DNA from: an uncultured Chromatiaceae bacterium
GTDB taxonomy: Bacteria; Pseudomonadota; Gammaproteobacteria; JAADHS01
Assembly (NCBI GenBank): GCA_945787615.1
Contig: CALZJI010000181.1
Span: forward strand, 1 to 42,052
Length of the DNA stretch: 42,052 nucleotides
Direction of reading: 5' to 3'
Shown: piece after piece, positions 1,882 to 31,025 of the stretch
Layout of the letters: each line of letters begins with the position of its first letter
Numbering within the stretch: the stretch's first letter is position 1
Translations under genes and position numbers: made by a program
Notes under the pieces: generated by a model
What the model saw: only the letters and a program-made list of their open reading frames with translations
Database searches by the model: none
What the model was told of the DNA's origin: nothing

Positions 1882-2579
1882 TCACCCCGCCGGATAAGTG
1901 GCATAAATCAGACCTGGTTCCCGTTCGACACCCACCCTCCGTGATATCGGGTCGAAGCGATAAGTCAGATAGAAAAGCAGACGGGGCGCGCTTAACACAT
2001 TCGGATTGAAGATTACGGTGTTAATGCCCTCCCGATGTCGGGCGGAGGGAGCCAGCCAGCAGCCCCGGCTGCCCCTCATGAGTAAGGCGTCGGCCAATCT
2101 GGTGTGTCAAGCCATAATCGTCTGCGATAAGCCCAGGATGGCTCTCCGCTTTCGCAGAGAGATCAACCAACACCGCGCGACAGAAGACGGCGTAGACGGC
2201 GCGCTCGCGGACAATGATCTCCTCCAGCCCCTCGATATTGCTTTCATCTTGAATCATGTGGTGAGCCGTCTCGGCAACCGTGGTATCGATGTCTAACGAT
2301 CCATACCAGAGGCCGTACGTGCCATCGCCGTAACGGGATACCAGGTAGGGCTCACTCTCGAAGGGATAGGTGATAGCCGTGGTGTAGTGAAAGCCGCGCT
2401 CAATGGGCCCTGGGGGTAATTCTTACCTTTACCCGCATCTCCGCCGCCGCAGCCACTGTCGAGAGTTCAGCGTCTCCCTCTGCCAATTCTTCGTACAGAT
2501 CGATGGATTGACGTAGAGAAACGATGTTTCTAAACACGTCCTCACTGACGTCGCGACTGGTGTCGAACAGTGCATCCAT
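1882..2579 (-). pseudogene. RES-domain toxin (NAD+ phosphorylase family), two frameshifts
   Basis: The reading starts at an ATG overlapping the antitoxin stop (TAATG). It covers an N-terminal part (MDALFDTSRDVSEDVFRNIV...), then after a +1 shift near 2413-2425 the RES core (RYGDGTYGLWYGSLDIDTTVAETAHH and LVDLSAKAESHPGLIADDYG). After a second +1 shift near 2044-2062 comes the C-terminus (SARHREGINTVIFNPNVLS). With the two extra bases removed it would be about 231 residues, the usual length for this family. Intact relatives degrade NAD+ and arrest growth. As written the toxin is broken, either truly or by two single-base sequencing errors. Confidence 0.8.
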
Positions 2580-2992
2580 TACCTGCCACGCTGATAATCC
2601 AGGTAGCGCGCCACCCGTGCGATGCCGATCAAGCCATGCTCTGTCATTTCCTCAAGCGGCGTACGGTTGGTAAACGCGCGATTCCTGAGCTTAACCCACT
2701 GGGTGCGGAACTCTTGATTGTAAGGGTACAGTAGGCGCAGCGCTTTATGGATCGCCAGCAACCACCCTACCCTGTCCAAGGTGTCGCGGTTTGGGGATAA
2801 GGGCTCACCCCGACGGTACTTGCCCAGCAATGCTCGACTCGATTTGCTCAAGCCTAGGAGATTCAACTGGGTGGCCGTATCCAGGCCCCAGTGTTCAAAC
2901 AAACGGGTAACCAGCTTGGCCATCGCCTTACGGGATTCCAGCGTCTCCAGATCGGGGGCAGCGTCTGTTTGTCGTACGGAACTGATAGCCAT
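2579..2992 (-). CDS. Xre/MbcA/ParS-type antitoxin
   Basis: This protein of 137 residues has an Xre-like helix-turn-helix at about 34-60 (GLDTATQLNLLGLSKSSRAL). The C-terminal DUF2384 (MbcA/ParS/Xre toxin-binding) domain runs from about 75 to 137, with the typical IHKALRLLYP, PLEEM and RVARYLDY. The open frame reaches 3082, but ATG 2992 is preceded by AAGGA at good spacing and begins the family-like sequence. It is the partner of the RES toxin, to which it is translationally coupled through TAATG. Such antitoxins repress their own promoter; a dyad suited to that lies at 3021-3040. It looks intact although the toxin is broken. Confidence 0.87.
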   Translation of the reverse strand: MAISSVRQTDAAPDLETLESRKAMAKLVTRLFEHWGLDTATQLNLLGLSKSSRALLGKYRRGEPLSPNRDTLDRVGWLLAIHKALRLLYPYNQEFRTQWVKLRNRAFTNRTPLEEMTEHGLIGIARVARYLDYQRGR

Positions 2993-3020
2993 AACAAGCT
3001 TCCTTGATATGTTTAATAAT

Positions 3021-3040
3021 AAACTATATCGGTTTAGTTT
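3021..3040. promoter_or_regulatory. Candidate antitoxin operator
   Basis: A dyad with arms AAACTA and TAGTTT lies 29 bases upstream of the antitoxin start and includes a TATAGT -10-like element. This position suits autorepression by the Xre-type antitoxin. The assignment rests on symmetry and location only. Confidence 0.4.
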
Positions 3041-3173
3041 TCTGCCTTTTGACGTCTGGCAAAAGCACAAGGTAACAATCAAACAGGCGTTTTGGCATTA
3101 AAAAAGCGGATCTTAATCGCGCAAGCGTTACCTCGAAACGAAAAATTTGGGTTATATACACGAGGCTGGGCTC

Positions 3174-3490: not shown

Positions 3491-3859
3491 CTATTTCGGT
3501 GACCGAAGTAGGCGTCGCGTAATCGCGGCGCGGATAATCGCGCTCTGTGGGCCTGTCATGAGTGGATCGCGCTTTCTTAGTTCCAACACAGCGCCCTCCA
3601 TGCGATCCTTTAGTCCCGGTGTGAGCGAGAAAACTTCGCGCTCCGGACTGCGCGTGAGCCCCTCCCCTGTACCCACGCTTGCGAGCCACTCTTCGTGGTG
3701 TAAAAACTCATCGACGGCTTCGGCGATCCAAGCGCTCTTGCCCCGCATACCGTACCCGTCTCGAAGAACAGCGGCCAACATTTCCTTACGCATCTTCGTC
3801 GGTAGCAACACCGTTGTTCGTACTTTGTTTGCATTTCGACTTAGCGTCTGTGGACTCAC
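3491..3859 (-). CDS. Small third protein of the parAB operon
   Basis: This 122-residue protein of unknown function starts at GTG 3859, whose GTGA overlaps the upstream parB stop. An ATG at 3898 would overlap parB further and is less likely. The N-terminal half (NKVRTTVLLPTKMRKEMLAAVLRDG) resembles a ribbon-helix-helix DNA-binding segment. The tail is basic, ending in ITRRLLRSPK. Its tight coupling to parA and parB suggests an accessory partition protein or an operon repressor, but no family is recognised. Confidence 0.7.
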   Translation of the reverse strand: MSPQTLSRNANKVRTTVLLPTKMRKEMLAAVLRDGYGMRGKSAWIAEAVDEFLHHEEWLASVGTGEGLTRSPEREVFSLTPGLKDRMEGAVLELRKRDPLMTGPQSAIIRAAITRRLLRSPK

Positions 3860-4848
3860 GCGCTGCGCTCCTCTTGGCGTTTCCAAAACTGTTTCCACGC
3901 TTTGGTGACACTAGCCAAGTCGTCCCAATCGACATCTCCGAAATCATCGCCCTCTTCTCTCACAACAATCTCCATGACGCGGCGTACGGCAGCGACGTTA
4001 CCCGTGCTCCCCAATGCGATTTTTTTTGGAGGCCGCCCTGCCCTTTTCGGTCCCGTCGCCTCCGTATCGTGGGAAACCGTTCTTTTCTTGCCCGCTAGCT
4101 GCCGTAATGCATCCAGACCCGCTCCGGCACGGCACGCGTCGATCGCCGCAAGACGTCGCGACGTATCGGACAAACGAGCGATCAACGCGGCTTTATCGAG
4201 ATTACCGATGTCCCCTTCTTTCAGTGCCTGACAAACGTCCTCCGGCGCTTTGACGAGATGGACGTACATACTGGCTTGAGACATTGCAAAACCGGTTTCT
4301 TCCGCCAGTAATGTCGGCGTGATTTGTGTGCCGTGTTGCCGTTCATAGGCGTCAACAAGTGCGCGAATATTCTGAACACGCTCCCACGCCGTTAGATCAA
4401 GCCGTTCAACATTCTCGACATATTGTAGTAACCGCAAATCGTAGTCATCGGGCCGTTTCGGCCATATCCGGGCCGGGACGTGATCCTTACCCGCGAGAAT
4501 CGATGCCAAGAACCGGCGTTCCCCCATCGCGATCCGAAACCGCTCGCCGTGGCGATACACGACGATGGGCTGCTGAACGCCACTGCGCTTGATACTGATG
4601 GCGAGACTCTCGAGCTGTTGTTTCTCCGCGCGTTTACGCTGTATTTGCGGGTCTTGCGGATCAGGTTCGGGCAAATCGTGGCGCGTGAGAATCATGTCGC
4701 GGGGATTGTCAGGATCCGGTTCCAAGCGCGAAACGGGCACTATCTCGAAATGCAACTGCCCAACGTGTTCACGCCCTTGTTCCAGTACTTGACCAATACC
4801 TTGCGTCAGCGAACGATCTACTGAAAAACGTTTCTTTTTCCCACTCAT
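3856..4848 (-). CDS. parB: ParB-family partition protein of the parAB operon
   Basis: This 330-residue centromere-binding protein has VSRLEPDPDNPR at about 39-50, ParB box I-like QQPIVVYR at 92-99 and box II GERRFLA at 109-115. ENVERLDLTAWER (145-157) follows, then a helix-turn-helix at about 178-200 (TLLAEETGFAMSQASMYVHL). A basic linker (GPKRAGRPPKK) precedes an acidic C-terminal region probably used for dimerisation. The N-terminus carries basic residues of the kind that stimulate ParA ATPase. ATG 4848 overlaps the parA stop by four bases, so the pair is co-translated. It differs clearly from the ParB proteins at 513-1334 and 8711-10093. Confidence 0.92.
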   Translation of the reverse strand: MSGKKKRFSVDRSLTQGIGQVLEQGREHVGQLHFEIVPVSRLEPDPDNPRDMILTRHDLPEPDPQDPQIQRKRAEKQQLESLAISIKRSGVQQPIVVYRHGERFRIAMGERRFLASILAGKDHVPARIWPKRPDDYDLRLLQYVENVERLDLTAWERVQNIRALVDAYERQHGTQITPTLLAEETGFAMSQASMYVHLVKAPEDVCQALKEGDIGNLDKAALIARLSDTSRRLAAIDACRAGAGLDALRQLAGKKRTVSHDTEATGPKRAGRPPKKIALGSTGNVAAVRRVMEIVVREEGDDFGDVDWDDLASVTKAWKQFWKRQEERSA

Positions 4849-8710: not shown

Positions 8711-10093
8711 TTAGTCGTCCCAAAGCAGTCCGCCGCGTCGTTTTAAAAACGCGCGTATCTGTCGGCGATGGGTAAGTAGCAAAACAAAGTCATTGAATTC
8801 ACAATCTGTGAGCGTGGTGGCAACGAAAAACCAGTAAAAACCAACCTCTGCCTGACCGGTCGCGGAGTAAACATTCTTGGGTCTTGCCCCCAGGCGGATG
8901 TTCCTAACTAGCTTCCCGTCGCTTAGTCGAGTCAATTTGTCCAGGTGGTCTTGTTCGGAACAGATCAACAAAGTCCACCAGGCCGGCTTTTTTTTATTGC
9001 TAACGGGCACCACAGGCAAGTCGACGAGGTAGCCCACACCGAGGGCGTATGCGCTGACGCAAGTGGCCAGTTTATGCCGTTCGCTGATCCGCGGTGCAAT
9101 CTCATAGGTTCGCCGTCGCAATGACGCGAGGTCTTCTGGCGGCGTAGTCCGGGGGCGCGAACCGGGATCAGCTTGCGCTTCGCGCGTATTCGGTCGCGTT
9201 TCGGTGTCCGCGCGTGGCGTCGAGGCGAGCGGGTCTACTAGGGGAGGGGGGTCGGCGATCCCGCCTTTGTGACCGATCGCGTTGTTGCTGATACGCGCGT
9301 TCATCGTGGGGGTGTCGGTTATCTTCGCGATTTTTTCGTTCTGCTCATTGGCTAAGGCGGCGAGCGAGAAGTGTTCACCGTAAAGTTGCGATAAGCAGTC
9401 GAGATACATGTCCTCAAAAATGTGTTTTCTATCCGCAAACGCAATTCCTCGCCCATATTTCCCGTGGCGCGCACGTAAGGTGCGAAGCGACTCGATGTCG
9501 CGAAGAGTTAACCGGTTCATCGCCCGCGCCTCGGGTAGGTACGTTGCCAGCGTAGACCATTCATACTCATGCCGGAAAAGCATGGGTTGAGTAATTGTGT
9601 AGCCGGCTTTGGCGAATCCCTTGACGAACTGGCTCTGTGATAGATGCGCATTCAGCTCCACTTCGAGCAGTTCTTTTTGCTTCTTAAGTCGGTAGGCTTT
9701 ATCCAGTAACGTAAGGGGGCTTCGCTTTTCGTTTTCGATGAGGTGTGCGCAATGGCCACGTGACTCGCTGGACCACGGGATGTAAAGGCAATAGACTTCG
9801 AGGAACCGTGGATACCGTATTCCTTGACAAAGCGCTTGAAGAATCTCAAGGCGCGTGTTGCAGCCGAAACGGACCGTATACGGAGATGCGTTCGGGCGAC
9901 GGGTGACGGTCAAGGGGCTATCGATGCCTCCGGTGGCGCGTATTGACGCGCGAAGGTCCTCGTAGCGTTCGTTTCGGGTATGGCGAGGATTGAGGTCGTA
10001 CAGGTCGATGTCGGTGACCTTCAGCAGCAACGGTGACCGACCGTTGGTTGGCCGCTCATGCGATGGCTTAGACGTATCGTGTTGTGTCAGCAC
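8711..10093 (-). CDS. ParB-family protein of the PFGI-1 integrative-element class
   Basis: This 460-residue protein has the ICE-type ParB N-terminus: VTDIDLYDLNPRHTRNERYE (26-45), SPLTVTRRP (59-67), GCNTRLEILQAL (77-88, in place of GERR) and AHLIENEKR (116-124). A helical DNA-binding region follows at about 150-200. A long Pro/Asp/Arg-rich disordered linker (about 275-325) leads to a C-terminal domain of unknown fold with many aromatic residues. Start codon GTG 10093 has AGGA about six bases upstream. In relatives this gene belongs to the maintenance module of integrating elements, but no integrase or relaxase is seen here, so it may have been adopted for plasmid maintenance. Confidence 0.85.
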   Translation of the reverse strand: MLTQHDTSKPSHERPTNGRSPLLLKVTDIDLYDLNPRHTRNERYEDLRASIRATGGIDSPLTVTRRPNASPYTVRFGCNTRLEILQALCQGIRYPRFLEVYCLYIPWSSESRGHCAHLIENEKRSPLTLLDKAYRLKKQKELLEVELNAHLSQSQFVKGFAKAGYTITQPMLFRHEYEWSTLATYLPEARAMNRLTLRDIESLRTLRARHGKYGRGIAFADRKHIFEDMYLDCLSQLYGEHFSLAALANEQNEKIAKITDTPTMNARISNNAIGHKGGIADPPPLVDPLASTPRADTETRPNTREAQADPGSRPRTTPPEDLASLRRRTYEIAPRISERHKLATCVSAYALGVGYLVDLPVVPVSNKKKPAWWTLLICSEQDHLDKLTRLSDGKLVRNIRLGARPKNVYSATGQAEVGFYWFFVATTLTDCEFNDFVLLLTHRRQIRAFLKRRGGLLWDD

Positions 10094-10364: not shown

Positions 10365-11039
10365 ATGAACATGGGCGCTGAGACGAACAAAAAAATTAAA
10401 GTGGTTTTAGCGGATGATCACCCTCTATTAAGGGCAGGATTCGCGTCCATTCTCCAGGATACCCCGGACATCCAGGTCGTCGGCGAAACGGATAACGCGC
10501 GTGACGCCGTTGAAAAATATAAATCCCTACGGCCAGACGTGATTTGCCTGGATCTTTTATTCGTGGAAAAGACGACAGGATTGGACGCCACGAAAGAAAT
10601 CATCGAATACGACCAGGACGCGAAAATCGTCATTCTTTCTCAGCATGATCAGGATAATTTGATTAAGGAAGCGTATAAATACGGCGCGAAAGCCTTTGTC
10701 ACCAAACGAAGTCGACCCGGAATATTGATAGAGGCGATTAAGAAAGCATCGAGCGGTGAGCTTTATTTTCCCCCTGACATTGCGGAACGACTCGCTTTTT
10801 TAACTACACAAGAAGGTCCGTCGCCCATCGATTCCTTCACGAAGCGAGAGTATGAAGCGTTTAAATTGATCGCGAGCGGGCGAAGCACGCGGGAAATTGC
10901 CGAGGAATGGGGCGTCTCGGTTAAGACCGTCAATAACATCTTACTGGCGGTCAAAGAGAAAGCGGGTTATACCCGCGTTGCGGACTTAACGCGATTGGCG
11001 CTCCAGTATGGGGTTATCGACAAAGAACCCGGTGGTTGA
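10365..11039 (+). CDS. NarL/FixJ-type two-component response regulator
   Basis: This 224-residue regulator has a receiver domain at 11-125 with acidic pair D17-D18, phospho-acceptor D63 (VICLDLLF), S92 and K114. The C-terminal LuxR-type helix-turn-helix lies at about 157-215 (FTKREYEAFKLIASGRSTREIAEEWGVSVKTVNN). The helix motif departs slightly from the usual KTVxxH, having KTVNNI. No strong ribosome-binding site precedes ATG 10365, and ATG 10371 is possible. Its natural partner is the HisKA_3-type kinase at 16582-18186 on the same strand, although five kilobases of other genes separate them. Confidence 0.93.
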   Translation: MNMGAETNKKIKVVLADDHPLLRAGFASILQDTPDIQVVGETDNARDAVEKYKSLRPDVICLDLLFVEKTTGLDATKEIIEYDQDAKIVILSQHDQDNLIKEAYKYGAKAFVTKRSRPGILIEAIKKASSGELYFPPDIAERLAFLTTQEGPSPIDSFTKREYEAFKLIASGRSTREIAEEWGVSVKTVNNILLAVKEKAGYTRVADLTRLALQYGVIDKEPGG

Positions 11040-11048
11040 GCCGCCGGG
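11028..11048. terminator. GC-rich hairpin at the end of the response regulator
   Basis: CCCGGTGG and CCGCCGGG pair around TTGAG at the stop codon. No T-run follows, so it is a weak candidate for transcription termination. Confidence 0.35.
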
Positions 11049-11340
11049 CCGCGCCAGCCTAATCACCGTTTGTGTTGAGCGAAAAGTGCGGACGAGTAAG
11101 GGAAGTGATGATGCGTGTCGGTAGCCGGTACCAACGGGACGTCGTCGGAAACGCGCCTGTAGTTGCCGCATACAGAGGCGTGTATTCATGACGGAAGACC
11201 GACGTAAGTTTGAAAACTCGGTACAGCACAGACGCTTTGTCGCGAAGCAGTTGATTACCCGTCAATACAAGTAACAACGGCGGAGTTTACGGGCGTTGCC
11301 GGTTCAGGACTAGTACTCGAAACACGGCTTACAACAGCCA

Positions 11341-11775
11341 TTAAGCGGATTCAACGAGCCATCTTTTAACGCGTACGGGCGAAGGAGAGGGCGTGTAGTC
11401 TCTCCAAAATATTGTTTCGTGGGACATGAAATCGCGTAGTCGCATCGTAAGGGAATTCCATTGGGTACGGCCGTTGAACACGCGATAAAAAAAACAGGGC
11501 ATCGTCGCCACCCGGTTTATAAACTCGTCCTGGCGTTTTTCCAGAGGGTCGCTGCCCCACGTGCGCATGACAATACGATGTAAATACGGGTAGGGCATTT
11601 CGATTTCGTCCTCGATAACCGTTTCAAGCCCATCAAAGTTCTCAATAAGGACTATAAATTTAGGAATCAAGCGAGTAAACCCCAAATCCGTGAGATCGGC
11701 AATACACGCATTTTCCGTGAGTCGCTGTGCGTAGATAGTTTTACCTCGCAATGGCGAGAACATATATGGCAACAA
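11341..11775 (-). CDS. Hypothetical protein of 144 residues
   Basis: No family is recognised. The composition is protein-like, with hydrophobic strands (RLIPKFIVLIENFDGL), an acidic stretch (ETVIEDEIEMPYPYLHRIV) and a basic-aromatic C-terminal half. The longest frame uses a TTG start at 11775; ATG 11763 gives 140 residues and is the alternative. Neither has a clear ribosome-binding site. It stands alone between the response regulator and a gene-free stretch, transcribed towards the regulator. Confidence 0.5.
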   Translation of the reverse strand: MLPYMFSPLRGKTIYAQRLTENACIADLTDLGFTRLIPKFIVLIENFDGLETVIEDEIEMPYPYLHRIVMRTWGSDPLEKRQDEFINRVATMPCFFYRVFNGRTQWNSLTMRLRDFMSHETIFWRDYTPSPSPVRVKRWLVESA

Positions 11776-12405
11776 ACATAGGTTCCGAAAATACGCAAAA
11801 TATCGAGAGAATCAACAATAAATGCTGTTTTGCTCATTGAGCTATTTAACGCGCTCCGAAACCGTTCAATGAACGAGGCGAGTTCATTAGGCGGCGATGC
11901 TGAACCTCAAGCGTGCCCGGGTCATGTGTATCGAAACGCGGTCTCGAAGTAAATACAAAAAATCGGGAGATGTGAACGGCGAGGAGTGGCGCTTTCAAGA
12001 AGACGGTCGAGACCCCAGTTATCGTTAGGGAATGTAGTTCAGCGGATCGGGAGACGCGCCGACGGGGCGGCTCACTGCGTGGCCCGAAGATCATCGGGCC
12101 CCCTCTTATGTGGAACTCAATCTAAAGGCGAGGGGGAGCGTACTGTGGGCTCCCGCGCCCACAAAAACGCCTAAGCGTGAATGGTGTCTATCAACGGTAG
12201 GGAACGGCTCGAACGTACCCGAGCTCGCGATCCTCAGGGGGCATGAGTTTTTCCACCGTATGGGTTATTCTATGTTACTTGTGAATAAAATAATGAAACA
12301 GCATCGCACCGCTCGTCGGTACGAATGTGTCGGGCAAAGCAGGTGCTACAACAACAATAAGTCATAGAGCAAGCCATCTTATGCCGTCGTACGGCGAGGG
12401 AGGGA
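11776..12405. other. 630-base gene-free region with two GC-rich hairpins
   Basis: Small open frames here look non-coding. Two perfect stems stand out: GGCCCGA/TCGGGCC (12081-12100, six-base loop) and GTGGGC/GCCCAC (12145-12162). A short dyad GCCGT-CGT-ACGGC (12383-12395) sits just ahead of the methyltransferase ribosome-binding site. A structured RNA or long leader is possible, but I recognise no known RNA family. Confidence 0.4.
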
Positions 12406-13305
12406 ATGATGAGGCATGGAAAGCACAGTAGGACTGCAGAAAGCGCTGCCGCGTTCCGGGCAGCGCATTTTATATATGATAAGGATCATATTTTCGAAGA
12501 CCCCTTCGCTATAGAAATGGTTGGCTCGACATTACGAATTATTCTCTCTAACCGGGTGCTGTTTTCTGTTTTTTTTACCAAACTATTACGAAGCGTTTAT
12601 CGGCCTGCACAAGCGCAGATATTGAGCCGGTGCCGTTACGCGGAGGATTGCCTCGAGGAGGCCATTAAAGAGGGCATTGATCAGTATATTATCATCGGTG
12701 CGGGTTTGGATACCTTTTGTCTACGCCGCGCGGATCTACTCGATTCCCTGCATGTTTATGAAATAGACCATCCTGCAACCCAGCAATATAAACGGTCAAA
12801 GCTTAAAAGAATGGGCGAAAACGATGTCCATAACGTCCGCTATGTTTCCGTAGATCACGAGAACGAGGCTTTCGCCACCGCACTACAGCGTTCCGGCTTT
12901 GATCAACACAGACCGGCATTCATTTCGTGGTTAGGCACGACACCTTATTTAACTCAATCGGCAATAATGCAAACCTTGCAGGCGATTTCGTCTTCGTGCG
13001 CGCCCGGATCCATTATCGTTTTTGACTATGGCGTATCCTCGAAGCTCATTACGCCCGAGGACGCGCAAATATTAAAGAAAGTGCAACGACTTACGGCTTT
13101 GATGGGCGAGCCACTCAGATTTGAAATCATTCCCGAGGACTTCATAAATGAGTTAAGGAAGCTCGGATTCGAATGTCTCGACGACTTAGCGGTGGGTGAC
13201 TATATACAACGATATTTTGCTGAGCGAAACGACGACTTAAAACCCATAGACGGTTCACGATACTGTCGTCTGAGAATCGCGAGCCCGCCCGATAGCAGTG
13301 AATAG
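12406..13305 (+). CDS. SAM-dependent methyltransferase, LCMT/TIGR00027-like
   Basis: This 299-residue class I methyltransferase has the leucine carboxyl methyltransferase-like layout. HSRTAESAAAFRAAH (7-21) and FEDPFAIEMVG (30-40) open the protein. The SAM-binding motif YIIIGAGLDTF is at 94-104, the acidic VYEIDHPATQQYKRSKL at 117-133 and SWLGTTPYLT at 174-183. Bacterial members methylate small molecules or unidentified acceptors, so the substrate cannot be read from sequence. AGGGAGG directly precedes ATG 12406 (a second ATG follows). It converges on the TonB receptor gene. Confidence 0.88.
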   Translation: MMRHGKHSRTAESAAAFRAAHFIYDKDHIFEDPFAIEMVGSTLRIILSNRVLFSVFFTKLLRSVYRPAQAQILSRCRYAEDCLEEAIKEGIDQYIIIGAGLDTFCLRRADLLDSLHVYEIDHPATQQYKRSKLKRMGENDVHNVRYVSVDHENEAFATALQRSGFDQHRPAFISWLGTTPYLTQSAIMQTLQAISSSCAPGSIIVFDYGVSSKLITPEDAQILKKVQRLTALMGEPLRFEIIPEDFINELRKLGFECLDDLAVGDYIQRYFAERNDDLKPIDGSRYCRLRIASPPDSSE

Positions 13306-13338
13306 TGCCTAGCCCGCCGGTGATACGTACGACCCGTA

Positions 13339-15363
13339 TTAGGATTTATCCCAGACGTACTCGGCTTCTATATAAAGGCTCCGGCCCTCGAGCGGAAAGT
13401 CATTCGGGATGTTAAGCCCGGGAGCGGGACTCGGATCGCGTGCGTCGACGTCAAAGATATTTCGTCCGAGCAGTGAAATGCTAAATTCAGGATTAAAGAA
13501 ACGCCTTATCACAACATTTGTTGTCGTGTACCCATCAAGGGGAGGCCGACTGTCCGCTGGACCGCGACGCCGATTACCGACATTTTTGAATTCCAATCCG
13601 GTTAACCACTGCGGTTTTGCCCGCCAATTCAAGCGTAAGTATGTGGTATGTTTAGGTGCGTATCCGGGGTATTGCCCCGTATCTTTTCGTTCAGCGTCTA
13701 ATTGAGTGTGGTTAACAACAACCCGCCAATTGTCATTCACGCGCCATTTCAGTTCTGCCTCGACGCCGTAGCCCGTTTGCCCTTCATAATTTTGTGACAA
13801 CTTACGATTCAATGGATCGTCTGTATCAACATCCTCTATCGGATTCTTCATGTCATATGAAAACGCAGTCAATGCTGTGGACAAGTTTTTGTTGAGCCGA
13901 TAAATATTCGCGATTTCGTAGGTGTCGATCCGACTGACCAATAGATCGCCTCCTTCTACTAACGCCGGGGGTTGAAATGCGCGACCGTATAGGATTTTCC
14001 ATGTCGAATCAAGCGTTGGAAACCAAACAAGGCCCATGCGAGGGCTGACTTTGCTGCCGTACGTATTGAAATGGTTTAAACGGCCGCCGGTGGTTAATGT
14101 CCAGTCGGGCAAAAAGTTCCAATTGTGTTGAAAAAATACATAGCTATTTTCTCGTTCATTAGCGATCAGTCCATCAATGTTTACTGTACTGGTAAAATCA
14201 AAAGGTAAAATGTTGCCGTTAAAATCGAGGTAATTCCGTTCGATGCTCGCATCGCGAACTTTCAAAATGTTATATCCGAACCCATAGTCGATTGTCGCAT
14301 GGTCGAAACCGGAGTATAAGAACTTAGCGTCTACGGCAAGGTATTTTTCTTTAAATCGCAGCGTATCGATGATACCGATCGTTGCCGCTCCTCCAAGGGC
14401 GCCCGGTGGACTCAATTTCGCTTCATTCGGGTTAATCTCATTCTGATTAAGTCGAAGCGTATACAACGCTTTCGTATTCGGTGTCAGGGACTGTTCATAC
14501 TTTCCGATGAGCCCAAGTTCAGTGGACTCTCCGCGATTATCCTTAGGCTGTAGCGATTCTCTAAAACCGGCACCCCATCCAGCATGAAATTTCTCATAGT
14601 TTGCGGAGATATTGAAACCGTTTCCTTTAGCGGCGAATACCAGCGCGCTTGCTCTCCTCCAAGCCCTAGCGTCACCGGGTGCTAACGACGCGGTCGTATT
14701 AAGGAGGCTATCGTGACGAGTTTGCGCGTCGCTATCGATCAATAGGTCGTCTCCGTCACTGTCGGCACTGTACGCAGCAAAATAGGTTTTAAATCCACCG
14801 AATTCCTCGCCATGTATCAACCAGCCAAACTGACTATCAAAAGACCCTATTTGTCCGCCTAGGCGCGTTTGCTGCAATTCTAAAGGCGGTTTTGTGATTA
14901 AATTGATGACACCAGAGAACGCATCTGCGCCGTAAATGGCCGACCCGGGACTTCGTTGAATTTCGATTCGTTTAAGCCGCCGCATTAGGGTACGTTGCGA
15001 TACGGGACTTAACCGTGGGCCGAAAAACGCCGCGGGTTCGTCCGTCCCGTTATTTAGAAACAAGAGCGTCTGGCTGAAGGGAGAACTTAATCCGCGAATA
15101 GAGTAGATTTGGTTATATAAGGAATCGACCGCCTGGTGAATCCCGACGGCTTGAAATAGAATATCGTCTAATGTTCTCGCCGGAACGCCGAGGATATCGT
15201 CTTCCGTCAAGACGGTCGCAACAATCGGCGATGAACGTACCGACTGTTGTTTCCCGAGGGCGATATTGAGTAATTCCGTATCGCCGTAGACGTCCATTAT
15301 GTCATACGCAACAGATGAAAGAGGAAGAAGTAGTAACGTAATACTCGCGAATAGTCGCGTCAT
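13339..15363 (-). CDS. TonB-dependent outer-membrane receptor
   Basis: This protein of 674 residues (from ATG 15363; the frame opens three codons earlier at GTG 15372) has an N-terminal signal peptide, MTRLFASITLLLLPLSSVA. A plug domain follows (LTEDDILGVPARTLDDILFQAVGIHQ, YSIRGL, RIEIQRSPGSAIYGADAFSGVINLIT), then a long barrel of alternating aromatic strands ending YIEAEYVWDKS. The GGGG before ATG 15363 supports that start. The ligand is unknown. It is divergent from the periplasmic binding protein gene, suggesting that the two handle the same compound. Confidence 0.93.
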   Translation of the reverse strand: MTRLFASITLLLLPLSSVAYDIMDVYGDTELLNIALGKQQSVRSSPIVATVLTEDDILGVPARTLDDILFQAVGIHQAVDSLYNQIYSIRGLSSPFSQTLLFLNNGTDEPAAFFGPRLSPVSQRTLMRRLKRIEIQRSPGSAIYGADAFSGVINLITKPPLELQQTRLGGQIGSFDSQFGWLIHGEEFGGFKTYFAAYSADSDGDDLLIDSDAQTRHDSLLNTTASLAPGDARAWRRASALVFAAKGNGFNISANYEKFHAGWGAGFRESLQPKDNRGESTELGLIGKYEQSLTPNTKALYTLRLNQNEINPNEAKLSPPGALGGAATIGIIDTLRFKEKYLAVDAKFLYSGFDHATIDYGFGYNILKVRDASIERNYLDFNGNILPFDFTSTVNIDGLIANERENSYVFFQHNWNFLPDWTLTTGGRLNHFNTYGSKVSPRMGLVWFPTLDSTWKILYGRAFQPPALVEGGDLLVSRIDTYEIANIYRLNKNLSTALTAFSYDMKNPIEDVDTDDPLNRKLSQNYEGQTGYGVEAELKWRVNDNWRVVVNHTQLDAERKDTGQYPGYAPKHTTYLRLNWRAKPQWLTGLEFKNVGNRRRGPADSRPPLDGYTTTNVVIRRFFNPEFSISLLGRNIFDVDARDPSPAPGLNIPNDFPLEGRSLYIEAEYVWDKS

Positions 15364-15377
15364 AAACCCCACGCTTT

Positions 15378-15400
15378 CGTTCTACTGGTTACGTAGAACG
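15378..15400 (-). promoter_or_regulatory. Perfect hairpin in the receptor leader
   Basis: CGTTCTAC and GTAGAACG pair perfectly around a seven-base loop, ending about 15 bases upstream of the receptor start. It could be an operator or an RNA hairpin affecting translation. No riboswitch class is recognised. Confidence 0.45.
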
Positions 15401-15550
15401 TCTATTCCGCAGTAGAGTTTAGGCGCTATACTATCCGCGCAAACCACATCCCTTTGATTTGTTGAGATTTATAAAACCGCCAAGCGGCACCTAACAATCA
15501 ACTGCTATTATTATATTATTTGGTATTTAAACCTATTTTCCGACCCGGCG

Positions 15551-16585
15551 ATGCGCGACCAAACACTTATCAATGATTCCGTCCTAACGATAGGCATAGG
15601 AAAATCCTCGGGTAAAACGGGTCGTTGTTATCACTGCTTACGATACTATCACAAGTTCTTAACACTCAGCATAGTGCTTTTCATTATCAGCGTTGTCCCA
15701 AGCGAAGCGTACCCAGAATCTGACAAATACTCTCTGGTAGTCTACCCGCCCCATCTCGCCGAGCAGCGCACGGTGTTTCTAGACGAGATTTTAAGAGGGA
15801 TCGCATCGACTAATCGTCGCTTCAATCTAAAGACATTTGCTGTTGACGTTAACGACCCTAATCTGAGTAAGCTCATTAATGACGAACGCCTTATCAATGC
15901 AATCTCAATCGGCAACACGTTTTTTCGTACGCGTTCGCTTAATCGGAACGTAAAGCACGTTTTTTGCGCATCGTTTCCGTCCACCGTGCTGCAGGAGATC
16001 GACGACCATTCCGGAATACTCTTTACACCTGATCCGGCTTATGTGTTCCAGAAACTCGTGCAGACGTTAGGTTCGTGGAAACGCCGTACGATTAAACGGG
16101 TACACGTCGTATACAGTGACGCGATATCTCACTGGGTGATAACTCAAGCAGACGTCGCGGCTAGCGAAGTTGGACTTGAATTAGCGAAACACCCGGTCTC
16201 TACGGTTTCTGAGGCCGGCACGACGTACTCAACTTTAATTCCTTCGCTATCGCCGCATGATAGTCTTTGGTTAATTAACGATCCATTTTCGAACAATGAC
16301 ACGTTTATAGAGCTGATAGTCCGTCTCGCTTGGATTCATCAGATACCAATTATCTCTAACAAGCTCTCCGATGTCGAAGCGGGCGTGTTGTTTGCGGTTT
16401 ATCCGAATCTCGAAGCAACAGGTAATCGGCTAGCGGAACTCGCGTTGGGCGAAAAACAACAGATTATAACGATTACTGAATTGTCAGCGGCAATTAACAA
16501 GCGTGTTGCGGTACATTTGGGCGTTCCCATCGATGCAGTAAATGATGAGTTTTCACTGACGTATCCGTCACACATAACAGAATGA
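15551..16585 (+). CDS. ABC-type periplasmic binding protein (PF04392-like), no transporter partner
   Basis: This 344-residue protein has a hydrophobic export segment at about 37-53 (LTLSIVLFIISVVPSEAY), preceded by an unusually long basic N-terminus, so the true start may lie later. The mature part has the two-lobed layout of ABC substrate-binding proteins of the ABC_sub_bind type: VEVVYP-like YSLVVYPPH, NAISIGNTFF, KHVFCASFPSTVL, KRVHVVYSDA and PIISNKLSDVEAGVLFAVYPNLEATGNRLAEL. No permease or ATPase gene is nearby. Its stop overlaps the kinase start (ATGA), so it is probably a sensory rather than a transport subunit. Confidence 0.8.
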   Translation: MRDQTLINDSVLTIGIGKSSGKTGRCYHCLRYYHKFLTLSIVLFIISVVPSEAYPESDKYSLVVYPPHLAEQRTVFLDEILRGIASTNRRFNLKTFAVDVNDPNLSKLINDERLINAISIGNTFFRTRSLNRNVKHVFCASFPSTVLQEIDDHSGILFTPDPAYVFQKLVQTLGSWKRRTIKRVHVVYSDAISHWVITQADVAASEVGLELAKHPVSTVSEAGTTYSTLIPSLSPHDSLWLINDPFSNNDTFIELIVRLAWIHQIPIISNKLSDVEAGVLFAVYPNLEATGNRLAELALGEKQQIITITELSAAINKRVAVHLGVPIDAVNDEFSLTYPSHITE

Positions 16586-18186
16586 AACGCGTGACCAATA
16601 GAATGCGATTCTCGTTTTACAAGACATCAACAAATCCGGCTAAGCGGTCTTTTAGGGATTATTTTATCCTAACGTTTTCGGTCGCATTTATAGTATTCGC
16701 CTCAATCTTAGTCATCCTCGCCAATATGTCGACGAGTCGCGTTATCAATCATTCCTTAGAGGATATGGCCTCCGCGATCCTCATGCAATTGCGCGACGAT
16801 ATCGATCTCGCAATTGTTACGAATAGCGAAGTGTTTGCAAAAATGCCGCTCGAATCGGCATATTCGGTACCGGATGTCGTTTATGTTGAAGTGCTCAACA
16901 CTAAACGAGAGCGTCTGTTCTCTACCCCTTTTAAAGGAAGTAATGCAACAATTAAAACTAGTGAGGTAGTCAATAAAATCAGTTTTAGCGAATCTGACCA
17001 ACACAGCATTCTCTATTATGAAGACGACGATTATTGGTATTTTACGGCTAACGTGTTTTTTAAAAACCTAAGACGAGAGGCCGCATTAACCGATCGCTCT
17101 TCGAAGATTACAGCCGATACCGTTGATCTTCTCAACATGGACACCTTTAATAAAGACGAACATATTGGGTATGTCGATATCGTTTTCTCTAAGAAACGTG
17201 CACGAGATTCACTGTGGAGGCTATCGTTACAATTATCGGCTGTAACGATACTGTACGTATTGATAACTATTATTGTACTGGGATTCGTCGCTTCCCATTT
17301 CTCTAGACCTCTGTTAACACTTTCATCAAAAATGAACACGGCTAAATCCGATTTATCCCTGGCGACACCCTACCGCGAGCATACCACGGTTAGCGAACTC
17401 GCTACGATCGGCGAAGCATACAATACCTTGTTGCAATCGATAGCCGCTCGCGATAATAGGTTAAAAGAACACACGAGACAATTAGAAGACGAGGTCGAGA
17501 GACGCACGGAAAAGCTATCAATACTTAATGAACAAAATCGCGCACTTATCCGAGCGATGAATCAACGGCTCGAGGATGAGCGAAAGTATATTGCGAGAGA
17601 AATTCACGATGAGCTCAATGCAACGCTCGTTGCGGCGAAATTACAGGCGTGGCGTGTGCAAGAACTGCTTGATAACGCAGCCCGCGATGATGACCTTAAC
17701 GAGTTGAAACGTTGTGCGAACTCGACGGTGGAAATGATCGAACGCGTCTACGAGGTAGCTCGTAATATCATCCGTCGGCTGCGGCCAGAAGTCATCGATA
17801 CGTTAGGATTGATAGGCGCCATCGAGGATATTGTTAACACCTTTAATGTGCTTCACCCAGAATGTCATTTTGAACTCGACCCGAGCGGCAGTTTTGACGC
17901 GCTCGGGGATGAGTTGAACATGGCCATCTATCGGATAATTCAGGAAAGCCTAACCAACGTCGTTAAACATTCGAACGCGGCTCAGGTACGTATCGCATTA
18001 GTTCAACAACTGGAGCACATTAGTATATCGGTATCTGATGACGGCGACGGTTTTGATCCCGAGCGCGTGGGGAATGGGGTGGGCATACTGAGTATGCGCG
18101 AGCGTGCCCACGTGTTGGGTGGAACGCTATCGGTTAAGTCGGGGGGCACCGGAACCACCGTCTACGCCAAAATTCCAGTCCAATAG
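16582..18186 (+). CDS. Membrane sensor histidine kinase (HisKA_3/NarX-UhpB type)
   Basis: This 534-residue kinase has two membrane helices (about 28-48 and 214-237) that flank a periplasmic sensor region of about 165 residues. HAMP-like and coiled-coil parts follow (about 238-335). The phosphorylation helix YIAREIHDELNATL carries H342. The ATPase domain has the N box IIQESLTNVVKHSNA (452-466), DDGDGF (486-491) and GVGILSM (499-505). Kinases of this class signal to NarL/FixJ regulators, matching the gene at 10365-11039. The four-base overlap with the binding-protein gene implies co-translation and direct contact in the periplasm. Confidence 0.94.
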   Translation: MKRVTNRMRFSFYKTSTNPAKRSFRDYFILTFSVAFIVFASILVILANMSTSRVINHSLEDMASAILMQLRDDIDLAIVTNSEVFAKMPLESAYSVPDVVYVEVLNTKRERLFSTPFKGSNATIKTSEVVNKISFSESDQHSILYYEDDDYWYFTANVFFKNLRREAALTDRSSKITADTVDLLNMDTFNKDEHIGYVDIVFSKKRARDSLWRLSLQLSAVTILYVLITIIVLGFVASHFSRPLLTLSSKMNTAKSDLSLATPYREHTTVSELATIGEAYNTLLQSIAARDNRLKEHTRQLEDEVERRTEKLSILNEQNRALIRAMNQRLEDERKYIAREIHDELNATLVAAKLQAWRVQELLDNAARDDDLNELKRCANSTVEMIERVYEVARNIIRRLRPEVIDTLGLIGAIEDIVNTFNVLHPECHFELDPSGSFDALGDELNMAIYRIIQESLTNVVKHSNAAQVRIALVQQLEHISISVSDDGDGFDPERVGNGVGILSMRERAHVLGGTLSVKSGGTGTTVYAKIPVQ

Positions 18187-18968: not shown

Positions 18969-19358
18969 TCAACAATGTTTCTGCCACTCGTCTTCAAGAT
19001 TCTCTTCCAGCCATTCCGATATCGTGATGCCATCACGCATTGAAAGATTGCTTAACATAAGCCAAGCGCGATGGGTTAATGAAATGTGTTTCCGCCCTTC
19101 GCCGGCGAGGGCGGCGCGCCGCTTTCGCGTGGCCCGAACGGCGTTTTTAAGCTGTGTCCACTGCTCGGCGGTAAGCCATTTTTCACACCACGCGTTGAGT
19201 GTCGTCACGTCTGTTGTCCTTTTGAAGCTGCGCTCAGCTCTAATGCTCTCAAGATCGTCTTCCGCCGGCCACGACGCATTCTGAAAAAACTTGCGTGCAA
19301 TATAGTCCCGCGCCGTTTTGTAGTCGGACTTCGTGATGGTGTAACGTGGACGCGGCAT
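18969..19358 (-). CDS. Hypothetical basic protein, possible ribbon-helix-helix C-terminus
   Basis: This 129-residue protein has a helical, charged N-terminal part (SDYKTARDYIARKFFQ), a basic middle (VRATRKRRAALAGEGRK) and a C-terminal segment, KHISLTHRAWLMLSNLSMRD then ITISEWLEENL. That segment has the strand-helix-helix pattern of ribbon-helix-helix repressors. No named family is recognised. ATG 19358 is first in its frame after a well-formed promoter with inverted repeats, consistent with autoregulation. It is upstream of the WGR gene in the same direction. Confidence 0.65.
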   Translation of the reverse strand: MPRPRYTITKSDYKTARDYIARKFFQNASWPAEDDLESIRAERSFKRTTDVTTLNAWCEKWLTAEQWTQLKNAVRATRKRRAALAGEGRKHISLTHRAWLMLSNLSMRDGITISEWLEENLEDEWQKHC

Positions 19359-20134: not shown

Positions 20135-20449
20135 TCATATGCGTTGTTGAGTCGGTGGTTTGCGTCGTCCTTGCCCGGTGGTTGATGGCGCCGTCCCGGC
20201 GTTGAACGACAGTATGCCGTAGGCGGCGTCGATGACGTAGCGGAGAATGGTTACAACGCATGTAAGAAAATGTCGACTCAACGCGTGAGCGTGGCGATGG
20301 CGAATGAGATAAAGCACGAGGGTTTGCCTCGTTGATGTCCCGAGCCATAAAATACCTACACCAAGAAGTGAAAATATCCGACAACGATTAACGCAGGCCG
20401 CCGATTCTCGCACCTGCCAGGCATCGCTAAGCTGTGTCGGCGATGTCAA
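20135..20449 (-). CDS. Possible small hydrophobic protein upstream of the HicB-like gene
   Basis: A 104-codon frame with a hydrophobic segment (RIFSLLGVGILWLG) and an amphipathic helix-like stretch (LTCVVTILRYVIDAAYGILSF), ending just before the HicB-like gene. It has no recognised family and overlaps the start of the IS91-type fragment on the other strand. An overlapping 88-codon frame that runs into the HicB-like start is Ser/Arg-rich and looks non-coding. Confidence 0.25.
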   Translation of the reverse strand: MTSPTQLSDAWQVRESAACVNRCRIFSLLGVGILWLGTSTRQTLVLYLIRHRHAHALSRHFLTCVVTILRYVIDAAYGILSFNAGTAPSTTGQGRRKPPTQQRI

Positions 20450-20736
20450 CGAAGCCCTGTCCTAGCCACGATTCTCCAAAGCCGAGGATTCACTACGAAC
20501 GGCGCCGTCCGGAAGAGACGGCGTTGTACCGTATTGTTCAGGAGAATGTCGACACGTTTTTCGCCCAAGTCGAAGCGGAATCGGGTACGTCACTGCCGGC
20601 GTTTGTGAAAGAAGAATTCGATGCGTTTTTGGGCTGCGGAGTCTTGGCGCATGGCTTTACGCGCCTTAAGTGTGGGAGCTGCCGCCATGAAAAAGTTGTC
20701 GCCTACAGCTGTAAAAAAAGGGGATATGCGGAGTAA
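20434..20736 (+). pseudogene. IS91-family transposase, N-terminal fragment
   Basis: About 96 residues match the N-terminal zinc-binding region of IS91 transposases: ETALYRIVQENVDTFFAQVE, LPAFVKEEFDAFLGCGVLAHGF and LKCGSCRHEKVVAYSCKKRG. The next expected residues (a second cysteine pair and the HUH-type catalytic domain) are missing. After CKKRG the sequence switches to the terminal block, and the frame stops after YAE. It could be mobile-element debris at the plasmid end, or the point where the end was formed. It cannot be active. Confidence 0.85.
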
Positions 20737-23866: not shown

Positions 23867-25471
23867 CTATTGGACTGGAATTTTGGCGTAGACGGTGGTT
23901 CCGGTGCCCCCCGACTTAACCGATAGCGTTCCACCCAACACGTGGGCACGCTCGCGCATACTCAGTATGCCCACCCCATTCCCCACGCGCTCGGGATCAA
24001 AACCGTCGCCGTCATCAGATACCGATATACTAATGTGCTCCAGTTGTTGAACTAATGCGATACGTACCTGAGCCGCGTTCGAATGTTTAACGACGTTGGT
24101 TAGGCTTTCCTGAATTATCCGATAGATGGCCATGTTCAACTCATCCCCGAGCGCGTCAAAACTGCCGCTCGGGTCGAGTTCAAAATGACATTCTGGGTGA
24201 AGCACATTAAAGGTGTTAACAATATCCTCGATGGCGCCTATCAATCCTAACGTATCGATGACTTCTGGCCGCAGCCGACGGATGATATTACGAGCTACCT
24301 CGTAGACGCGTTCGATCATTTCCACCGTCGAGTTCGCACAACGTTTCAACTCGTTAAGGTCATCATCGCGGGCTGCGTTATCAAGCAGTTCTTGCACACG
24401 CCACGCCTGTAATTTCGCCGCAACGAGCGTTGCATTGAGCTCATCGTGAATTTCTCTCGCAATATACTTTCGCTCATCCTCGAGCCGTTGATTCATCGCT
24501 CGGATAAGTGCGCGATTTTGTTCATTAAGTATTGATAGCTTTTCCGTGCGTCTCTCGACCTCGTCTTCTAATTGTCTCGTGTGTTCTTTTAACCTATTAT
24601 CGCGAGCGGCTATCGATTGCAACAAGGTATTGTATGCTTCGCCGATCGTAGCGAGTTCGCTAACCGTGGTATGCTCGCGGTAGGGTGTCGCCAGGGATAA
24701 ATCGGATTTAGCCGTGTTCATTTTTGATGAAAGTGTTAACAGAGGTCTAGAGAAATGGGAAGCGACGAATCCCAGTACAATAATAGTTATCAATACGTAC
24801 AGTATCGTTACAGCCGATAATTGTAACGATAGCCTCCACAGTGAATCTCGTGCACGTTTCTTAGAGAAAACGATATCGACATACCCAATATGTTCGTCTT
24901 TATTAAAGGTGTCCATGTTGAGAAGATCAACGGTATCGGCTGTAATCTTCGAAGAGCGATCGGTTAATGCGGCCTCTCGTCTTAGGTTTTTAAAAAACAC
25001 GTTAGCCGTAAAATACCAATAATCGTCGTCTTCATAATAGAGAATGCTGTGTTGGTCAGATTCGCTAAAACTGATTTTATTGACTACCTCACTAGTTTTA
25101 ATTGTTGCATTACTTCCTTTAAAAGGGGTAGAGAACAGACGCTCTCGTTTAGTGTTGAGCACTTCAACATAAACGACATCCGGTACCGAATATGCCGATT
25201 CGAGCGGCATTTTTGCAAACACTTCGCTATTCGTAACAATTGCGAGATCGATATCGTCGCGCAATTGCATGAGGATCGCGGAGGCCATATCCTCTAAGGA
25301 ATGATTGATAACGCGACTCGTCGACATATTGGCGAGGATGACTAAGATTGAGGCGAATACTATAAATGCGACCGAAAACGTTAGGATAAAATAATCCCTA
25401 AAAGACCGCTTAGCCGGATTTGTTGATGTCTTGTAAAACGAGAATCGCATTCTATTGGTCACGCGTTTCAT
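23867..25471 (-). CDS. Sensor histidine kinase, arm 2
   Basis: Mirror of 16582-18186; H342 kinase with periplasmic sensor region. Confidence 0.94.
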   Translation of the reverse strand: MKRVTNRMRFSFYKTSTNPAKRSFRDYFILTFSVAFIVFASILVILANMSTSRVINHSLEDMASAILMQLRDDIDLAIVTNSEVFAKMPLESAYSVPDVVYVEVLNTKRERLFSTPFKGSNATIKTSEVVNKISFSESDQHSILYYEDDDYWYFTANVFFKNLRREAALTDRSSKITADTVDLLNMDTFNKDEHIGYVDIVFSKKRARDSLWRLSLQLSAVTILYVLITIIVLGFVASHFSRPLLTLSSKMNTAKSDLSLATPYREHTTVSELATIGEAYNTLLQSIAARDNRLKEHTRQLEDEVERRTEKLSILNEQNRALIRAMNQRLEDERKYIAREIHDELNATLVAAKLQAWRVQELLDNAARDDDLNELKRCANSTVEMIERVYEVARNIIRRLRPEVIDTLGLIGAIEDIVNTFNVLHPECHFELDPSGSFDALGDELNMAIYRIIQESLTNVVKHSNAAQVRIALVQQLEHISISVSDDGDGFDPERVGNGVGILSMRERAHVLGGTLSVKSGGTGTTVYAKIPVQ

Positions 25472-26502
25472 TCTGTTATGTGTGACGGATACGTCAGTGA
25501 AAACTCATCATTTACTGCATCGATGGGAACGCCCAAATGTACCGCAACACGCTTGTTAATTGCCGCTGACAATTCAGTAATCGTTATAATCTGTTGTTTT
25601 TCGCCCAACGCGAGTTCCGCTAGCCGATTACCTGTTGCTTCGAGATTCGGATAAACCGCAAACAACACGCCCGCTTCGACATCGGAGAGCTTGTTAGAGA
25701 TAATTGGTATCTGATGAATCCAAGCGAGACGGACTATCAGCTCTATAAACGTGTCATTGTTCGAAAATGGATCGTTAATTAACCAAAGACTATCATGCGG
25801 CGATAGCGAAGGAATTAAAGTTGAGTACGTCGTGCCGGCCTCAGAAACCGTAGAGACCGGGTGTTTCGCTAATTCAAGTCCAACTTCGCTAGCCGCGACG
25901 TCTGCTTGAGTTATCACCCAGTGAGATATCGCGTCACTGTATACGACGTGTACCCGTTTAATCGTACGGCGTTTCCACGAACCTAACGTCTGCACGAGTT
26001 TCTGGAACACATAAGCCGGATCAGGTGTAAAGAGTATTCCGGAATGGTCGTCGATCTCCTGCAGCACGGTGGACGGAAACGATGCGCAAAAAACGTGCTT
26101 TACGTTCCGATTAAGCGAACGCGTACGAAAAAACGTGTTGCCGATTGAGATTGCATTGATAAGGCGTTCGTCATTAATGAGCTTACTCAGATTAGGGTCG
26201 TTAACGTCAACAGCAAATGTCTTTAGATTGAAGCGACGATTAGTCGATGCGATCCCTCTTAAAATCTCGTCTAGAAACACCGTGCGCTGCTCGGCGAGAT
26301 GGGGCGGGTAGACTACCAGAGAGTATTTGTCAGATTCTGGGTACGCTTCGCTTGGGACAACGCTGATAATGAAAAGCACTATGCTGAGTGTTAAGAACTT
26401 GTGATAGTATCGTAAGCAGTGATAACAACGACCCGTTTTACCCGAGGATTTTCCTATGCCTATCGTTAGGACGGAATCATTGATAAGTGTTTGGTCGCGC
26501 AT
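25468..26502 (-). CDS. ABC-type periplasmic binding protein, arm 2
   Basis: Mirror of 15551-16585; overlaps the kinase start by four bases. Confidence 0.8.
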   Translation of the reverse strand: MRDQTLINDSVLTIGIGKSSGKTGRCYHCLRYYHKFLTLSIVLFIISVVPSEAYPESDKYSLVVYPPHLAEQRTVFLDEILRGIASTNRRFNLKTFAVDVNDPNLSKLINDERLINAISIGNTFFRTRSLNRNVKHVFCASFPSTVLQEIDDHSGILFTPDPAYVFQKLVQTLGSWKRRTIKRVHVVYSDAISHWVITQADVAASEVGLELAKHPVSTVSEAGTTYSTLIPSLSPHDSLWLINDPFSNNDTFIELIVRLAWIHQIPIISNKLSDVEAGVLFAVYPNLEATGNRLAELALGEKQQIITITELSAAINKRVAVHLGVPIDAVNDEFSLTYPSHITE

Positions 26503-26652
26503 CGCCGGGTCGGAAAATAGGTTTAAATACCAAATAATATAATAATAGCAGTTGATTGTTAGGTGCCGCTTGGCGGTTTTATAAATCTCAACAAATCAAA
26601 GGGATGTGGTTTGCGCGGATAGTATAGCGCCTAAACTCTACTGCGGAATAGA

Positions 26653-26675
26653 CGTTCTACGTAACCAGTAGAACG
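26653..26675 (+). promoter_or_regulatory. Receptor leader hairpin, arm 2
   Basis: Mirror of 15378-15400; CGTTCTAC/GTAGAACG. Confidence 0.45.
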
Positions 26676-26689
26676 AAAGCGTGGGGTTT

Positions 26690-28714: not shown

Positions 28715-28747
28715 TACGGGTCGTACGTATCACCGGCGGGCTAGGCA

Positions 28748-29647: not shown

Positions 29648-30277
29648 TCCCTCCCTCGCCGTACGACGGCATAAGATGGCTTGCTCTATGACTTATTGTT
29701 GTTGTAGCACCTGCTTTGCCCGACACATTCGTACCGACGAGCGGTGCGATGCTGTTTCATTATTTTATTCACAAGTAACATAGAATAACCCATACGGTGG
29801 AAAAACTCATGCCCCCTGAGGATCGCGAGCTCGGGTACGTTCGAGCCGTTCCCTACCGTTGATAGACACCATTCACGCTTAGGCGTTTTTGTGGGCGCGG
29901 GAGCCCACAGTACGCTCCCCCTCGCCTTTAGATTGAGTTCCACATAAGAGGGGGCCCGATGATCTTCGGGCCACGCAGTGAGCCGCCCCGTCGGCGCGTC
30001 TCCCGATCCGCTGAACTACATTCCCTAACGATAACTGGGGTCTCGACCGTCTTCTTGAAAGCGCCACTCCTCGCCGTTCACATCTCCCGATTTTTTGTAT
30101 TTACTTCGAGACCGCGTTTCGATACACATGACCCGGGCACGCTTGAGGTTCAGCATCGCCGCCTAATGAACTCGCCTCGTTCATTGAACGGTTTCGGAGC
30201 GCGTTAAATAGCTCAATGAGCAAAACAGCATTTATTGTTGATTCTCTCGATATTTTGCGTATTTTCGGAACCTATGT
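29648..30277. other. Gene-free region with GC-rich hairpins, arm 2
   Basis: Mirror of 11776-12405; hairpins at 29891-29908 and 29953-29972. Confidence 0.4.
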
Positions 30278-30712: not shown

Positions 30713-31004
30713 TGGCTGTTGTAAGCCGTGTTTCGAGTACTAGTCCTGAACCGGCAACGCCCGTAAACTCCGCCGTTGTTACTTGTATTGACGGGTAATC
30801 AACTGCTTCGCGACAAAGCGTCTGTGCTGTACCGAGTTTTCAAACTTACGTCGGTCTTCCGTCATGAATACACGCCTCTGTATGCGGCAACTACAGGCGC
30901 GTTTCCGACGACGTCCCGTTGGTACCGGCTACCGACACGCATCATCACTTCCCTTACTCGTCCGCACTTTTCGCTCAACACAAACGGTGATTAGGCTGGC
31001 GCGG

Positions 31005-31025
31005 CCCGGCGGCTCAACCACCGGG
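31005..31025. terminator. Hairpin at the end of the response regulator, arm 2
   Basis: Mirror of 11028-11048; strong stem without a T-run. Confidence 0.35.

Follow-up and report, generated by a model that had tools for sequence, protein, structure and literature searches.

The window, i.e., the whole stretch of 42,052 bp that was analysed, corresponds to one entire contig (G000:C181) of a host genome that is a MAG of 616 contigs with 85% completeness. This contig is a perfect reverse-complement palindrome (2 x 21,026 bp), so each gene of the window is present twice; the two copies do not represent independent evidence, and one copy was counted. The gene set at 10365-18186 is mirrored at 23867-31688. 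A TrfA replication protein and ParA/ParB are encoded in the window, which fits a plasmid replicon. An earlier note on this DNA had assigned a response regulator (RR), a methyltransferase, a TonB-dependent receptor (TBDR), a binding protein (SBP) and a membrane sensor kinase (HK) to the locus, with the regulator on the same plasmid as the kinase. All of these parts were recovered from the ORF coordinates, with Pfam domains for all but the SBP, and they are arranged as follows:

10365-11039, + strand: NarL/FixJ-type RR (Pfam Response_reg + GerE), which probably partners the HisKA_3 kinase; mirror copy 31014-31688, - strand
12406-13305, + strand: LCM/TIGR00027 SAM-dependent methyltransferase (Pfam LCM), an adjacent gene whose membership in the module has no support
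13339-15372, - strand: TBDR with Plug and barrel (Pfam), with an ATG at 15363 as its likely start; mirror copy 26681-28714, + strand
15373-15550, no strand: intergenic region between the divergent TBDR and SBP-HK genes, from its sequence a putative shared promoter region
15551-16585, + strand: orphan periplasmic SBP, putative divergent PF04392 (ABC_sub_bind) member (family of its relatives, PDB profile matches, AF2 model, Foldseek); mirror copy 25468-26502, - strand
16582-16585, + strand: ATGA shared by the SBP stop and the HK start (ORF coordinates), with the geometry of translational coupling
16582-18186, + strand: HK (Pfam HisKA_3 + HATPase_c); mirror copy 23867-25471, - strand
16720-17232, + strand: periplasmic sensor domain of the HK, proposed docking site of the SBP (sensor profile, blind search, co-divergence in relatives)

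Kinase, receptor and binding protein of the window

The HK has two transmembrane segments (residues 28-46 and 218-236) that enclose a periplasmic part of about residues 47-217, followed by HisKA_3 (333-403, 39 bits in Pfam) and HATPase_c (448-533, 50 bits). The motif IAREIHDE lies in HisKA_3, with its His at about residue 341. The overlap of 4 bp that had been described between the SBP and HK genes is confirmed, and the same -4 spacing was also seen in several relatives, in which the gaps between the SBP and sensor genes are mostly -4 to +20 bp. The TBDR gene is divergent from the SBP gene, as had likewise been noted. In the window TBDR, Pfam finds Plug and barrel alone and no STN signalling domain, and neither FecR nor a sigma factor was found among the scanned window proteins. 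In FecA, signalling to FecR and a sigma factor proceeds through an STN domain at the N-terminus; the window TBDR resembles such transducers as a receptor involved in cross-envelope signalling, but it differs in the absence of a detected STN domain, and the signal carrier would here be the SBP. A blind search with the window TBDR gave mostly receptors of SBP-module loci as the top matches, and some of the best matches came from genomes without a detected SBP of this clade (G034, G178, and G118). The module L097 is the nearest to the window in both the TBDR tree and the SBP tree.

The SBP carries a hydrophobic segment (residues 36-54) in the predicted signal peptide region. No convincing match for the window SBP was obtained in Pfam, NCBIfam or PDB sequences, and it did not match the PF04392 profile at E<=0.1; it is the sole exception among the alignment members, 25 of 26 of which match PF04392. 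Its homologues occur in 25 further genomes from the initial sample, and it is only about 20-30% identical to other SBPs of the module, in line with the divergence of the window proteins. A PDB profile search with the SBP alignment retrieved 3lkv, 3lft, and 6hni. The same three structures (6hni, 3lft, and 3lkv) were the best Foldseek matches (prob 1.00, TM about 0.5-0.6) of an alignment-based AF2 model with a pLDDT of 84, while a single-sequence AF2 model (pLDDT 32) was discarded. The moderate TM values may originate from differing hinge states of a two-domain protein. LuxP ranked 30 among the fold matches of the model, and XylFII-LytSN complexes were also matched; LuxP and XylFII are both binding proteins with an action on kinases. 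The assignment of the window SBP as a divergent PF04392 protein with a predicted type I periplasmic binding protein fold is thus supported by relatives, profile search and model, and so is the label of binding protein, at first a guess. No relatives were found in viral contigs, and plasmid records gave one distant Methylomonas match per search and nothing closer. The closest solved structures by both profile and fold belong to the transport SBPs TrpX and CD0873 of PF04392 (3lft, 6hni), from which the window clade differs in its gene neighbours, since classical members adjoin a permease and an ATPase and the window clade adjoins a sensor. The 3lft structure was solved with L-Trp.

Neighbourhoods of related binding proteins

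Gene neighbourhoods were examined in 28 loci from sampled genomes, 80 loci from named genomes, and the host contig C90, altogether covering 91 non-redundant SBPs; the contig scan used a 6-sequence SBP alignment, as a 17-sequence alignment was too divergent. The same-strand gene directly downstream of the SBP encodes a sensor-domain-family kinase or diguanylate cyclase in 85 of the 91 cases, and the periplasmic part of the window HK matches the profile of SBP-adjacent sensors with 48 bits despite its HisKA_3 rather than HisKA output; since this profile was derived from SBP neighbours, both the count and the match are partly circular. One of the six SBPs without a labelled downstream sensor is located at a contig end, and three are followed by a very long opposite-strand ORF, which, judging from its length and position, probably masks the true sensor gene. 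The outputs attached to the sensor domain in the relatives are HisKA kinases, hybrid kinases with Hpt, and GGDEF-EAL proteins.

Less circular are the blind searches with the HK N-terminus and the TBDR, and the phylum-wide SBP scan. When the N-terminus of the window HK was searched against 369 genomes, the best matches were kinases with the sensor domain right behind such an SBP; the sensor domain was found in 21 of the 29 examined non-self loci, and 20 of these 21 have an SBP directly in front. The remaining eight loci, matched via HAMP or kinase parts alone, contain neither the sensor domain nor an SBP. In the phylum-wide scan, SBPs scoring above about 115 bits are followed by a sensor gene in nearly all cases, often with a TBDR or TPP-like match as well, whereas the classical PF04392 proteins, which score lower, mostly precede a permease with 7-9 TM and an ABC ATPase.

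The earlier note had described the SBP as lacking a permease or ATPase, and had named a binding protein that always occurs with its own ABC permease as the observation that would count against its proposal. The window proteins that were scanned yielded neither an ABC permease nor an ABC ATPase, and the relatives have no conserved neighbour of this kind. An ABC ATPase lies within six genes of the SBP in seven of 91 cases, and the one whose domains were checked with Pfam proved to be a two-ATPase protein of the ABC-F-like kind rather than the partner of a transporter. The search for conserved permeases therefore did not refute the proposal: the signalling clade adjoins a sensor, and the classical PF04392 proteins adjoin permease and ATPase genes. 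These data also bear on the explanation that the SBP takes part in ordinary transport, serving an ABC permease encoded elsewhere, with the adjacent kinase gene being a matter of regulatory convenience. The annotation of PF04392 as ABC substrate-binding and the transporter genes beside its classical members speak for it, but the sensor gene that follows most SBPs of the signalling clade makes it very improbable. On the other hand, three SBPs of P. aeruginosa encoded near AgtS/AruS gave no sign of action on those kinases (PMC11113362), so the adjacency of SBP and kinase genes alone is no proof of activation.

Co-divergence, canonical loci and the ligand

The canonical gene order comprises a TPP enzyme, two citryl-CoA-lyase-like proteins (1 and 2), the TBDR, the SBP, and the sensor; Dechloromonas, Noviherbaspirillum and Malonomonas are among its cultured carriers. 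The acetolactate synthase models come nearest to the TPP protein, which also scores with ScyA-related ones; its two partners are nearest to short citryl-CoA lyases, and all of these matches are below the family cut-offs. By mirror-tree comparison of 54 loci, the SBP co-diverges with the sensor (r=0.91) and with the TBDR (r=0.93), values that are owed in part to the common inheritance of the cluster because the TPP enzyme reaches 0.88 with the SBP and the cluster enzymes also track it. Within the 36 loci with HisKA kinases alone, the SBP correlates with the periplasmic domain at 0.89 and with the kinase core at 0.44, the latter comparison being restricted to homologous HisKA domains. This contrast inside one polypeptide argues for a unit of three extracytoplasmic parts.

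It also weighs against a kinase that binds the ligand itself, as a BarA-type sCache sensor would, with the SBP tuning or sequestering the ligand without docking. Several homologous sensors do score as sCache_4, a class able to bind small ligands; however, given the near one-to-one pairing of SBP and sensor and the closer co-divergence of the SBP with the sensor than with the kinase core, we consider direct sensing hardly likely. A more serious alternative is that the SBP and the kinase form a periplasmic sensor, and the TBDR is merely a gene for nutrient or metal uptake, whose expression is controlled by the two-component system and whose product does not feed the sensor. The TBDR is within three genes of the SBP in 71 of 91 cases, and the 20 SBPs without one in this range, although some are at contig ends, are compatible with such an arrangement, as are the divergent orientation of the TBDR here, its opposite strand in several canonical loci, and the host contig C498, which carries an SBP-HK pair without a TBDR but is short. 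However, the TBDR co-diverges with the SBP as strongly as the sensor does, and an inner-membrane transporter is absent from the cluster: no protein with at least five predicted TM helices was found inside the enzyme block in 57 loci with TPP/citryl-CoA-lyase-like genes. A receptor for uptake only is therefore regarded as unlikely. Trans-envelope sensing by the TBDR, the SBP, and the sensor, as predicted from neighbourhoods, the blind sensor search, and co-divergence, is well supported.

An imported nutrient needs an inner-membrane carrier, and since the enzyme block contains none, a self-made ligand or one confined to the periplasm (e.g., a metal complex) fits better, although a carrier may be encoded outside the cluster. 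The ligand of the canonical loci may thus be self-made. The window module lacks the TPP enzyme and both citryl-CoA-lyase-like proteins. The second lyase-like protein is present in 20 of the 25 other SBP-bearing genomes and was not found in a search of the host genome of the window; therefore, the window copy would serve as a receiver, or its ligand would be another one. We tentatively propose, as a possibility that is rather doubtful at present, that the canonical module is an unrecognised self-signalling system, in which the cytoplasmic enzymes would make an exported small molecule, the TBDR would recover it, and the SBP-sensor pair would read it; the window plasmid would then carry a receiver-only copy with a swapped output.

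Output, proposed relay and known systems

The RR gene is located about 5.5 kb from the HK gene and outside its operon. The RR consists of a receiver (residues 13-126, Response_reg 76 bits) with Asp63 and a GerE HTH (156-211, GerE 34 bits), and with the HATPase-containing HisKA_3 kinase both components of a HisKA_3/NarL system are present. In searches of the MAG, HisKA_3 kinases and full-length NarL-type RRs were each found twice, with one pair on C181 and one on C90. From the match of classes and their scarcity in the genome, the pairing of the window HK and RR is plausible. The contig C90 encodes a module of TBDR, SBP, and hybrid kinase together with a NarL-type regulator and a REC-HisKA_3 kinase resembling the window HK; we infer that the window HK plausibly arose when the sensor of a module became fused to a HisKA_3 output like that of C90. 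A motif scan of SBP-linked sensors in the examined loci found the HisKA_3 core in no other module member. The window module thus appears to be an atypical variant, in which the sensor half was retained and the cytoplasmic output replaced by a HisKA_3/NarL pair. Accordingly, the expected co-occurrence of four families holds for the TBDR-SBP-sensor trio, which is widespread, but not for the NarL regulator with its HisKA_3 output, which is specific to the window copy. The methyltransferase had been suggested to modify the ligand or respond to it, but no homologue was found near any of the 91 related SBPs, and it was rejected as a module component.

We hypothesize, with a probability of roughly 0.68, that the locus encodes a sensing-only trans-envelope relay ending in the HisKA_3 kinase and the NarL-type RR of the plasmid. 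The TonB receptor would carry a scarce or bulky ligand over the outer membrane, and the orphan PF04392 SBP would capture it in the periplasm. The SBP, in its bound or free form, would dock on the periplasmic domain of the HK and set its activity; the HisKA_3 kinase would phosphorylate the NarL-type regulator encoded on the same plasmid, and the phosphorylated regulator would act on DNA targets, among them probably the promoter region between the divergent TBDR and SBP genes. The LuxPQ-like order of receptor, binding protein, and kinase put forward earlier is upheld in its gene trio, by conservation, the blind sensor search, and co-divergence, while ligand entry and capture by the SBP are steps that we infer.

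If this relay operates, a transport-type binding protein serves a signalling protein in place of a transporter, in a module that is widespread in Gamma- and Betaproteobacteria and also occurs in Desulfuromonadales. The TonB receptor appears dedicated to sensing, not feeding, and the same input unit is combined with many different outputs (kinase, hybrid kinase, and diguanylate cyclase/phosphodiesterase). Moreover, the adjoining enzymes of the canonical loci offer a direct route to the ligand. No description of the TBDR-SBP-sensor arrangement was found in the open-licence literature, which is weak evidence.

Among known systems, LuxP/LuxQ, the AI-2 receptor of Vibrio, is similar in combining a binding protein of the type I PBP fold with a membrane kinase and no transport partner, and the genes suggest a comparable action on the kinase here. 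LuxP/LuxQ has a hybrid kinase as output, and to our knowledge it has no dedicated TBDR. The window differs in its PF04392 SBP, another periplasmic sensor domain, the HisKA_3 kinase with a NarL-type RR, and a dedicated TBDR; neither the LuxQ periplasmic domain nor another LuxQ match was found in the HK with Pfam and NCBIfam. XylFII-LytS and TorT-TorS also pair an SBP with a sensor kinase, a pairing known in the window from the genes, but their SBPs are of the sugar or TMAO type, their sensor domains differ, and we know of no TBDR partner for them. YfiR/YfiN (DUF4154 protein and diguanylate cyclase) is similar in that the gene of a periplasmic protein immediately precedes that of a membrane signalling protein of the HAMP type; however, the YfiR domain is small and unrelated, and no DUF4154 match was obtained for the window proteins. 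A DUF4154-kinase, a GGDEF protein, and a TBDR are encoded on the host contig C27.

Enzyme genes adjoining the receptor module

The genes for a TPP enzyme and two short citryl-CoA-lyase-like proteins adjoin those of the TonB-dependent receptor (TBDR), orphan periplasmic binding protein (SBP) and sensor, and this arrangement is conserved in loci L034, L040, L043, L050 and about 50 more. The TPP / citryl-CoA-lyase-like block was located in two of them at:

L034:1881-5330
L040:3-3186

No inner-membrane transporter was found within the blocks of those loci. The enzyme genes possibly serve in ligand synthesis.

Other receptor-sensor layouts in the genome

A second module of the window's own genome, TBDR-SBP-hybrid kinase, is located on another contig (L268, G000:C90:1-12700). 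Genes for a NarL-type regulator, which is divergent, and for a REC-HisKA_3 kinase lie close to it. On contig C27 (L246:179-8237), the gene for a DUF4154 (YfiR-like)-kinase-REC protein stands in one row with genes for a GGDEF protein and a TBDR. This layout is parallel to the SBP module, with a different periplasmic domain (DUF4154).

Palindrome and other features of the contig

The full contig (1-42052) is a perfect palindrome with zero mismatches, centred at 21026/21027. It is either an artefact of assembly or a replicon, the latter with hairpin ends or in the form of an inverted dimer. Comparison of the two ends of the palindrome unit revealed no common sequence, and no telomere-resolving enzyme was detected among the window proteins scanned. 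Three ParB-like proteins are encoded per 21 kb unit, together with other features:

513-1457, ParB-like protein 1
2579-3082, antitoxin-like protein, Xre/MbcA/ParS-type
3856-4848, ParB-like protein 2
8711-10093, ParB-like protein 3, matching the ICE PFGI-1 ParB family, with DUF2857 coming after it
18969-19358, MatP-like protein (macrodomain Ter protein), weak similarity
20434-20736, IS91-type transposase zinc-binding fragment, close to the palindrome centre

DNA related to the transposase fragment (90-95%) is also present on contigs C428 and C531.
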